From NCBI GenBank assembly GCA_027006785.1, contig JALTFR010000047.1, positions 1-64,000 on the forward strand: a DNA stretch of 64,000 nucleotides, in the 5' to 3' direction. The stretch comes from Thermoplasmata archaeon (lineage in GTDB: Archaea; Thermoplasmatota; Thermoplasmata; WALJ01). This document shows positions 8,281 to 39,545 of the stretch, in pieces (the first letter of the stretch is position 1; every line of letters starts with the position of its first letter). The notes beneath the pieces are model-generated. The model was not told where the DNA came from, ran no database searches, and saw nothing but the letters and a program-made list of their open reading frames with translations. Position numbers and translations under genes: made by a program.

Positions 8281-8364
8281 GCCGAGGTAGTCTAGTCTGG
8301 TACGGCGCGAGCCTGGAAAGCTCGTGGGCATTCGCCCTCGGGAGTTCAAATCTCCCCCTCGGCG
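8281..8364 (+). tRNA. tRNA-Ser(GGA)
   Basis: Acceptor GCCGAGG/CCTCGGC, anticodon loop ctGGAaa, long variable arm, GGGAGTTCAAATCTCCC T-arm. Confidence 0.95.
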
Positions 8365-8386
8365 TTCCCTCGCTTCGCTCAGTCGC

Positions 8387-8434
8387 GCCGAGGGTTGCTC
8401 GCAAAGGCGTAACTTTGCTCGCTCCCCCTCGGCG
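8387..8434 (+). pseudogene. tRNA-Ser remnant: acceptor stem kept, body replaced by a hairpin
   Basis: GCCGAGGG ... CTCCCCCTCGGCG reproduces the acceptor strands of the adjacent tRNA-Ser; interior GCAAAG-gcgtaa-CTTTGC hairpin. Confidence 0.6.
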
Positions 8435-27748: not shown

Positions 27749-28762
27749 ATGCGATTCATTCCCGTGATAGAGATAGACGGTTCAATGGGCGAGGGCGGAG
27801 GCCAGATACTCAGGAACGCTCTCTCCCTTTCCCTTATCCTGAACGAGCCCGTTCGGATAACTAAGATAAGGGCGAAGAGGCCGAAGCCGGGTCTGAAACC
27901 ACAGCATCTGACATCGGTCAGAGCGCTCTCCGATATCGGGAATGCTGAGGTGAAAGGAGCGAAGATGGGTTCCATCGATCTTGAGTTCACACCCTCCGGG
28001 ATAAATGGAGGCGAGTATGTCTTCGATACGGGCACGGCTGGAAGCATAACCCTCATGATACAGGCGATCCTGCCCCCTCTTCTGATGGCCCCATCTCCTT
28101 CTGAGGTACTTCTGAAGGGAGGCACTGATGTGAAGTGGTCTCCTCCTGCCGATTATGCGAAGAATGTCTTTCTGAGCGCTCTATCCCGCATGGGCGCCCG
28201 TGTTGAAATGGAGGTTCTGAAAAGAGGTTATTACCCGAAGGGAGGCGGCGAGGTTCTGCTGAAGGTCTGGCCCTCGAAACTGCGCTCCCTTGAGCTCGTG
28301 GGCTCCTGGCCCTCAGAGGTGGATGGCATCGTGCACTGCTCCGGCCTTCCCGAGCATGTGCCTTCGAGGATAAGGAAAGCCTCTTTGAAGGAACTGATAG
28401 ACATTGAAACGAAGATATCCATTTCCTGTTCCGAATCCCTCTCTCCCGGCACTGGCATAGTTCTCCGGTCATCCGGAGATGACCATGTGATAGGCGCTGA
28501 CGCATTGGGTGAAAGAGGCCTGCCCTCAGAAAAGGTGGGGGAGAGCGCTGCGCTCCGCCTGAAGAAATCCTTTGGATACGGCGTTGACGAGCATCTTGCG
28601 GACCAGTTACTTATCTATCTCTCAATGGCAGGGGGAAGAATTGAGGCTCCTGTTATCAGTTCTCACACGGAAACAGGGATGGAACTGATATCCATGATGA
28701 CGGGCGGAGAGTTCGAGGTGCATGAGGAGGACGGGTTCGTCATAGAGGCGAAAAAGGCTTAA
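27749..28762 (+). CDS. rtcA: RNA 3'-terminal phosphate cyclase
   Basis: IDGSMGEGGGQILRNALSLS, RPKPGLKPQHLTSV, TAGSITLMIQ, YYPKGGGEV. Confidence 0.97.
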   Translation: MRFIPVIEIDGSMGEGGGQILRNALSLSLILNEPVRITKIRAKRPKPGLKPQHLTSVRALSDIGNAEVKGAKMGSIDLEFTPSGINGGEYVFDTGTAGSITLMIQAILPPLLMAPSPSEVLLKGGTDVKWSPPADYAKNVFLSALSRMGARVEMEVLKRGYYPKGGGEVLLKVWPSKLRSLELVGSWPSEVDGIVHCSGLPEHVPSRIRKASLKELIDIETKISISCSESLSPGTGIVLRSSGDDHVIGADALGERGLPSEKVGESAALRLKKSFGYGVDEHLADQLLIYLSMAGGRIEAPVISSHTETGMELISMMTGGEFEVHEEDGFVIEAKKA

Positions 28763-28983: not shown

Positions 28984-29229
28984 ATGGATATATACGTAGG
29001 AAATCTGTCATACGACGCAACAGAAGATGACCTCAAGAAGGTCTTTGAAGAGTTTGGAGAGATCGAAGCCGTGAAAATAATAACGGATAGATACTCCGGA
29101 AGGTCCAAGGGATTCGGATTCGTTACAATGTCTAACGAGGAAGAGGCCAGGGCCGCAATAGATGCCCTCAACGGAAAAGAGATGATGGGCAGAGAGATCA
29201 AGGTCAATGAAGCAAGACCCAGAATGTAA
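28984..29229 (+). CDS. single-RRM RNA-binding protein
   Basis: RNP2 DIYVGNLSYDATEDDL and RNP1 RSKGFGFVTM. Confidence 0.95.
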   Translation: MDIYVGNLSYDATEDDLKKVFEEFGEIEAVKIITDRYSGRSKGFGFVTMSNEEEARAAIDALNGKEMMGREIKVNEARPRM

Positions 29230-29463: not shown

Positions 29464-29602
29464 CTCAAGATTTAAAAGTCACATGACATTGCCGCACAGA
29501 AGGCCGGGATAGCCAAGTCAGGTCAACACGCACTTTCCTTCGGAAAGGCTTGCTCGCAGAATTCCTGCGAAATTCTGCTCGAGGCGGCAGACTCAAGATT
29601 TA
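29464..29602 (+). pseudogene. partial tRNA-Leu copy with promoter and a hairpin insert in the D-loop
   Basis: ctcaagatttaaaag and cacagaaggccgggatagccaagtcaggtcaa repeated with a constant 128-bp offset from the intact gene; 54-bp hairpin insert, then aggcggcagactcaagatt. Confidence 0.8.
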
Positions 29603-29630
29603 AAAGCGAGAATATGTTTCCACACAGAAG

Positions 29631-29714
29631 GCCGGGATAGCCAAGTCAGGTCAAAGGCGGCAGACTCAAGATCTGTTCCTCAGTGGTTCGCCGGTTCAAA
29701 TCCGGCTCCCGGCA
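29631..29714 (+). tRNA. tRNA-Leu(CAA)
   Basis: GCCGGGA/TCCCGGC acceptor; gcaga-ctCAAga-tctgt anticodon arm; GCCGGTTCAAATCCGGC. Confidence 0.94.
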
Positions 29715-29729
29715 CTTTGTTCTATCTTA

Positions 29730-37948: not shown

Positions 37949-38194
37949 GCCACTGTGGCTTAGCGGCGAGCTCTTTCTTTGTGCTCGCTTCGCTGGCTCA
38001 CCCTCCAAAGAAAGACATCACACGAGGAGTAACGCCTCCGAGTGCGTGACTCCCGCAGGAAGTCACTGATGAGAAAGAACACGACCTTTTCGGAGAAAAG
38101 GTCTGGTCGCACGGGCGTAACCATGCTCCATTCGGGTTCACCTGCTCGCTCGCAATATTCATTTAGTAGAAAGCCTTCATCCGCCCAACAGATT
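37949..38194 (+). pseudogene. 5' tRNA-Thr fragment followed by a hairpin-rich segment
   Basis: tgccactgtggcttagcgg identical to tRNA-Thr up to the D-loop, then multiple stem-loops. Confidence 0.65.
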
Positions 38195-38266
38195 GCCACT
38201 GTGGCTTAGCGGTATAGCGACGCCTTGGTAAGGCGTAGGTCGGGGGTTCGATTCCCCCCAGTGGCT
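38195..38266 (+). tRNA. tRNA-Thr(GGT)
   Basis: GCCACTG/CAGTGGC; acgcc-ttGGTaa-ggcgt; GGGGGTTCGATTCCCCC. Confidence 0.95.
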
Positions 38267-39436: not shown

Positions 39437-39545
39437 GGGCGATGCCCGACCGGATTTGTTCAAACGAGCAAAACTTGTTTTGCGACCAAGCCTTCTAAAA
39501 GAAGGCGGACTCAGAACTATCGTTCCTCGGCAGGACTTCTGGAAC
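39437..39545 (+). pseudogene. decayed tRNA-Leu-like sequence with hairpin inserts
   Basis: gatgcccgaccgg...gttcaaa, two perfect hairpins, then ggcggactcagaactatcgttcctcggcaggacttc resembling Leu anticodon and variable arms. Confidence 0.45.

Follow-up and report, generated by a model that had tools for sequence, protein, structure and literature searches.

Mobile DNA often lands in tRNA genes, and the reason for this is still debated. Small palindromic repeats dispersed in a genome, such as the Rickettsia palindromic elements and the REP/BIME-type repeats, resemble the units described below in that respect; neither the targeting of tRNA loops nor the self-duplication of tRNA ends is a known feature of them. 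Archaeal elements that use a tyrosine recombinase to integrate into tRNA genes (SSV1, pTN3, pT26-2, and PYG1; PMC8371274, PMC9897764) restore an intact tRNA and leave a partial copy at the far end, with the junctions at or near loop edges and either the 5′ or the 3′ portion of the tRNA gene duplicated. According to a review, archaeal tyrosine integrases may cut at tRNA loop edges, pTN3-like integrases use the 5′ half of the tRNA gene, and integration restores an intact tRNA (PMC8371274). The mitochondrial double-hairpin or repetitive hairpin-forming elements of Allomyces and sponges are short, non-coding, multi-copy sequences with one or two hairpins, which are apparently mobile and often lie in gene spacers (PMC2800124). 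In the split and permuted tRNA genes of archaea, tRNA fragments have extra sequence at loop positions including 59/60 (PMC3218864).

The tRNA-Leu(CAA) locus described here has traits in common with all of these. It was found that this odd locus is one member of a family of double-hairpin units spread over many tRNA genes, at both their 5′ and 3′ ends.

The tRNA-Leu(CAA) locus

The locus lies in the window, that is, the whole stretch of 64,000 nucleotides analysed, which belongs to an archaeal draft genome of 1.33 Mb in 49 contigs (G000); the archaeal SRP RNA and the sR3 RNA were found in this genome. As listed in Table 1, the putative promoter and the 5′ half of the tRNA-Leu(CAA) gene are duplicated, and the upstream copy has a hairpin insert at the D-loop. 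The repeats and the exact junctions bear out the first-pass annotation on this layout and on both hairpins of the insert. The insert is one nucleotide longer than the 54 bp given there, and its flanks are nucleotides 1-24 and 25-42 of the tRNA, with zero bases lost or gained. The 63-nt copies at 29464-29526 and 29592-29654 do have the reported offset of exactly 128 bp, but they are not exact duplicates throughout; at 86% identity overall, they agree fully over CTCAAGATTTAAAAG, their first 15 nt, and over the stretch CACAGAAGGCCGGGATAGCCAAGTCAGGTCAA, while about 16 nt in between have diverged. AGGCGGCAGACTCAAGAT is present twice, at 29582 and 29655. The 55-nt insert folds better than 198 of 200 shuffles; the fold of the whole partial copy is unremarkable against shuffles (z -0.5).

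Just upstream of the locus, an ORF at 28984-29229 (+) encodes an 81-aa protein with a single RRM (Pfam RRM_1, E 5e-28), and it adjoins an RtcA gene (27749-28762). Proteins of the RRM type are uncommon in archaea.

Table 1. Features of the tRNA-Leu(CAA) locus and further double-hairpin units in the window
Feature	Position	Strand	Basis
3′-type cassette: unit immediately after tRNA-Ser(GGA), then a copy of the 3′ end of this tRNA	8363..8421	+	Covariance model, 31.6 bits; flanks
Box-A/TATA-like segment CTCAAGATTTAAAAG (putative promoter) preceding the partial copy	29464..29478	+	Direct repeat; TATA-like enrichment
Partial copy, nt 1-24 of tRNA-Leu(CAA), identical to the intact gene	29503..29526	+	Sequence; direct repeat
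55-nt double-hairpin unit at the 3′ edge of the D-loop, after tRNA nt 24 and before nt 25	29527..29581	+	Exact flanks; covariance model R1, 26.6 bits, E 1e-7 in the window; fold, z -2.9
Hairpin 1 of the unit, CTTTCC-TTC-GGAAAG	29533..29547	+	Sequence; fold
Hairpin 2 of the unit, CAGAATT-CCTGCGA-AATTCTG	29557..29577	+	Sequence; fold (pairing of the centroid fold; the minimum-energy fold takes a shifted stem); covariation across orthologous loci
Resumed partial copy up to the anticodon loop, tRNA nt 25-42 (AGGCGGCAGACTCAAGAT)	29582..29599	+	Direct repeat; exact flanks
Second CTCAAGATTTAAAAG, which overlaps the partial copy at its end; putative promoter of the intact gene	29592..29606	+	Direct repeat
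Intact tRNA-Leu(CAA)	29631..29715	+	ARAGORN; Rfam RF00005, 59 bits
Unit nested within a longer, hairpin-rich D-loop insert; the partial tRNA-Thr(GGT) copy (~37950-37967) with this insert precedes the intact tRNA-Thr at 38195	38080..38129	+	Covariance model, 52.7 bits; sequence
Unit in a 3′-type array at a distance of ~1 kb from tRNA-Pro; the T-arm-like TTTGAACAAATCCGG motif comes next on the same strand as the unit	39465..39507	-	Covariance model, 24.7 bits

Double-hairpin units and tRNA fragments in the family

Is the insert found elsewhere in the genome? In the search proposed in the first-pass annotation, the exact sequence matches nothing else because the stems vary; a structure (covariance) model was needed, which finds related units at many tRNA genes. 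The model of a unit of ~50 nt was built from 14 units. At E<=0.5 it has 38, 16, 12, 34, and 27 matches in the five genomes of the family, the weakest of which will include chance ones, the model E-values being rough. The unit was found in all five of these genomes, which are incomplete drafts (74-91% complete). It is non-coding, ~50-60 nt in length, and its consensus is CAC, hairpin 1, CTG[C/G]TCG, hairpin 2, and CTC[G/C]. Across units the stems are variable; what recurs is the linkers and, in many cases, the hairpin-2 loop (GGCGTnAC).

Of 400 surveyed genomes of the class, only the five have several strong matches, and 19 others have one or two weak ones. Real units do exist in three other families, and all are adjacent to a tRNA gene; those of L119 (family f10) and L125 (f11), from among these weak matches, are located at tRNA 5′ fragments, and that of L372 (f13), obtained from a separate pattern search, lies downstream of a tRNA-Leu. 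Many weak matches in family f9 (among L118-L137) were set aside, being in GC-rich-looking sequence and mostly without a tRNA gene nearby. A viral source of the units has no support, as three pattern scans of viral contigs gave either nothing or matches that lacked the remainder of the unit and lay in sequence of unrelated appearance.

In the genome of the window, the zones up to 400 bp from a tRNA gene make up ~2.6% of the sequence, and 30 of 31 units (E<0.01) start there. I examined the tRNA loci of the family genomes as excised stretches and found an adjacent fragment of the same tRNA (self-fragment) at 76 of 176 tRNA genes (~43%), a count of self-fragments, only some of which were checked for a unit. 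The gene's own 5′ end lies upstream in 48 cases and its own 3′ end lies downstream in 39. In contrast, only 3 of 58 tRNA genes in other families of the class have a self-fragment. When the flanks were swapped between isotypes, 1-4 of 176 genes scored, and thus a chance origin of the self-fragments is excluded.

The 5′ fragments end at nucleotide 13 (9 cases) or 18-27 (40 cases), with a few at 12-15 and three at 59-61, by the T-loop. None ends at 28-58, apart from one zero-length seed artefact; the search needed a 12-nt seed, and shorter fragments would be missed. In a simple and rough mapping of the D-loop, which left 15 cases unclassified, about half of the 5′ fragment ends lie at its edges (13/14 and 21/22) or at most 1 nt off, and some lie inside the loop. 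The 3′ fragments are mostly 13-18 nt in length, and they therefore start near the 3′ edge of the T-loop. In many tRNA copies the insertion is clean, with the left flank ending and the right flank resuming at adjacent tRNA nucleotides. Near-full-length copies of tRNA-Arg (G002 and G003) and tRNA-His (G001) have a unit in the T-loop and stand beside intact genes. The 5′ ends of the partial and the intact copies are 66-305 bp apart.

The same layout as in the window, with the insert at the same point and different hairpin sequences, was found at tRNA-Leu(CAA) in G001 and G004, which belong to another genus of the family; in G002 a partial Leu(CAA) copy is present too, and its insert is different. 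Units occur in both orientations. They form tandems within one tRNA copy (two and three units at tRNA-Gln) and are nested in other inserts (Arg and Thr), and whole cassettes form tandem arrays at Val(TAC) (2x73 bp), Thr(GGT) (2x66), Leu(GAG) (3x70), and Ile2/Met (2x114). Congeneric genomes differ at orthologous tRNA genes; a 5′ fragment of Ala(CGC) is present in G001 and G003 and absent in G002 and G004, the empty sites coming from incomplete drafts. In G003 and G004, units are also found within other dispersed repeats, away from tRNA genes.

Several related structures were observed. A second, longer type of hairpin-rich insert (CGAGCTCTTTCTTT..., with CTGGCTCACCCTCCAAAGAAAG) lies at 37950-38150 of the window, in the D-loop of the partial tRNA-Thr, where it encloses the nested unit; similar long inserts are present at Arg, Ala, Pro, Leu, and Ile-type tRNAs. 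GCGGGCCCA lies just beyond the unit near tRNA-Pro, at ~39567. In L044, L049, L050, L065, and others, the tRNA gene is followed by a YTCGCTTCGCTCRGTCG-like stretch and then by an inverted copy of its own 3′ end, with which the 3′ strand of the tRNA could pair. G003 (L218 and L219) has two copies of a 196-bp MITE-like repeat with 13-nt inverted ends (GTCGCCGACCTGA/TCAGGTCGGCGAC) and the same kind of hairpins. One gene (L052, 1856-1974, minus strand) was called by ARAGORN as tRNA-Ser(gga) with a 43-nt intron. It is probably a miscalled, intron-bearing tRNA-Ile, since its ends match tRNA-Ile(GAT) of G001.

Possible origins of the cassettes

How did the units come to lie in tRNA copies? I favour, with a probability of about 0.58, the view that they are miniature, gene-less, non-autonomous mobile cassettes whose insertion at the edges of tRNA loops yields an intact tRNA and a partial duplicate. 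Their movement is inferred from direct observations, namely the clustering at tRNA genes and at loop edges, the exact junctions, the arrays, the nesting, the two orientations, the presence or absence at orthologous loci, and the restriction mainly to one family. The cassettes would enter tRNA genes at around 13/14 and 21/22 of the D-arm and 60/61 of the T-arm. Each event would produce a partial tRNA end (a 5′ fragment upstream or a 3′ fragment downstream), a unit, and an adjacent intact gene, and thus the host would stay viable. The cassettes would then multiply in tandem, nest in each other, and exchange hairpins. In the preferred mechanism, a recombinase acting in trans would cut at the loop edges, and repair or duplication would restore the tRNA.

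Against mobile cassettes, no mobilising enzyme was tied to the units in the five genomes. No tyrosine recombinase above the cut-off was found in the genome of the window, though it is rich in units. Tyrosine recombinases are encoded on contigs with tRNA loci in G004 (C13 and C18) and G003 (C183); two of the genes (G004 C13 8064-8734 and G003 C183 273-932) adjoin tRNA-Arg(TCT) genes with partial copies; this tRNA may serve ordinary integrative elements as well. An integrase encoded within the cassette is ruled out because the 66-305 bp between the 5′ ends are too short. A retro-origin (SINE-like, tRNA-derived) was rejected, as no reverse transcriptase (RVT_1) was matched in the five genomes, 74-91% complete as they are. 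So was an IS200/IS605 origin (REP/PATE), as the Y1 (HUH) transposase (Y1_Tnp) is present in G001 and absent in the four others. No common tetranucleotide was seen by eye at the insertion flanks. In addition, it is not obvious how a cassette excised from one tRNA would enter another isotype, yet the fragments match their own tRNA. In many 5′ copies the following 15-25 nt of the tRNA are present as well, and thus simple integration at an identity block is insufficient without a prior tandem duplication.

It is conceivable, as a tentative extension, that the mobile cassettes form a new, structure-recognised class. A recombinase or a replication-linked process would insert variable-stem double hairpins at the loop edges of many isotypes, rebuild the intact tRNA, and stack the cassettes in tandem, somewhat as in an integron whose attachment sites were tRNA arms. 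Among open-licence papers, I found no report of this combined arrangement.

The main rival is a functional tRNA-derived RNA, which I regard as rather unlikely. The partial copies would be small RNA genes under selection, each consisting of a 5′ or 3′ part of a tRNA with double hairpins and its own box A, and their RNAs would, for example, regulate tRNA processing or tRNA-cutting toxins, or act as decoys. Compared with shuffles, the units do have far more stable folds (z -2.9 to -5.3 for six tested sequences), and pairing is kept while the stems change. In nine units at Leu(CAA), Arg(TCT), and Arg(CCT) across genomes, picked by locus and not by their stems, pairing holds in 96% of the pair cells, and for hairpin 2 in 100%, with compensatory, both-sided changes at all 5 pairs of the latter, and no shuffle reached the covariation score. 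An earlier, wider set, partly chosen by paired stems, gave similar covariation. TATA-like sequences lie upstream of 21 of 57 partial copies and 53 of 172 intact genes, which are similar proportions, against 8 of 151 random windows. These are candidate promoters, from which transcription of the truncated copies is possible. The Leu(CAA) arrangement is also common to two genera. However, the covariation could result either from selection on RNA or DNA structure or from palindrome repair by template switching, which could keep stems paired without selection. Moreover, the presence of the copies varies between congeneric species, the 3′ strands of the acceptor and anticodon stems are missing from most 5′ copies, the unrelated repeats of G003 and G004 contain units as well, and the unit matches no Rfam family.

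A mutational process without mobility is also improbable, and I rank it just behind the functional RNA. tRNA genes would be partially duplicated in tandem, template switching at tRNA stem-loops would insert, copy, and perfect the hairpins, and the arrays would grow by slippage. The partial tandem duplication in the window is indeed bounded by CTCAAGAT microhomology, fold-back copies of tRNA 3′ ends exist (e.g., Ala, Ser, and Leu), some tandem arrays are perfect, and this process would do without the mobilising enzyme that was not obvious in the genomes. Nevertheless, unrelated loci and different families share the linkers (CAC..., CTG[C/G]TCG, and CTC[G/C]) as well as the loop of hairpin 2, and thus a donor sequence was copied rather than hairpins arising anew. 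The units in dispersed elements distant from tRNA genes also argue against it.

Remnants of ordinary integrative elements (viruses or plasmids) with a tRNA-using tyrosine recombinase, whose leftover attachment-site arms would be the hairpins, are a poor explanation. Integration into a tRNA gene does leave one partial and one complete copy (PMC9897764), and the recombinase genes of G004 and G003 mentioned above are in line with this. On the other hand, dozens of loci and isotypes are affected, the gap between fragment and gene is tens to a few hundred bp, and one common double-hairpin unit is present, often in tandem; other families lack such remnants at this rate, and the recombinase is missing, at the cut-off used, from the genome of the window. 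Finally, an assembly or sequencing artefact is hardly credible, because, while the drafts consist of many contigs, some of which end inside such repeats (e.g., C141 of G001), the pattern is consistent in five genomes, and the long-read assembly error considered in the first-pass annotation is refuted by the separate assemblies of G001 and G004, which have the same arrangement with diverged hairpins.

Comparison with known systems

A lineage in which ~43% of the tRNA genes bear self-fragments, many with a common hairpin module and loop-edge junctions, may provide a natural record of repeated tRNA gene breakage and rebuilding. If the partial copies are transcribed, they would be an unusual archaeal source of tRNA-fragment RNAs. 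They are also a practical trap for tRNA annotation.

Unlike the Rickettsia palindromic elements and the REP/BIME repeats, the units have variable stems, and only the linkers and loops are kept. While the pieces of split and permuted tRNA genes are needed to make the tRNA (PMC3218864), an intact gene stands beside each fragment here; as the intact tRNA-Leu(CAA) adjoins its partial copy, the fragments are not the sole source of that tRNA. Like the tRNA-integrating archaeal elements, the cassettes are flanked by a partial and a restored intact tRNA, with junctions at the loop edges. In contrast to those elements (~9-23 kb in the examples), they measure tens to a few hundred bp, are gene-less and thus encode no integrase of their own, and share one common hairpin unit at many isotypes. 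The unit is a short, non-coding, multi-copy repeat with two hairpins, as are the mitochondrial double-hairpin elements. It differs from them in residing on archaeal chromosomes, at the edges of tRNA loops, together with a partial duplicate of the same tRNA, and in ordered tandem cassettes. The nearest analogues are the mitochondrial double-hairpin elements in form and the tRNA-integrating elements in logic.
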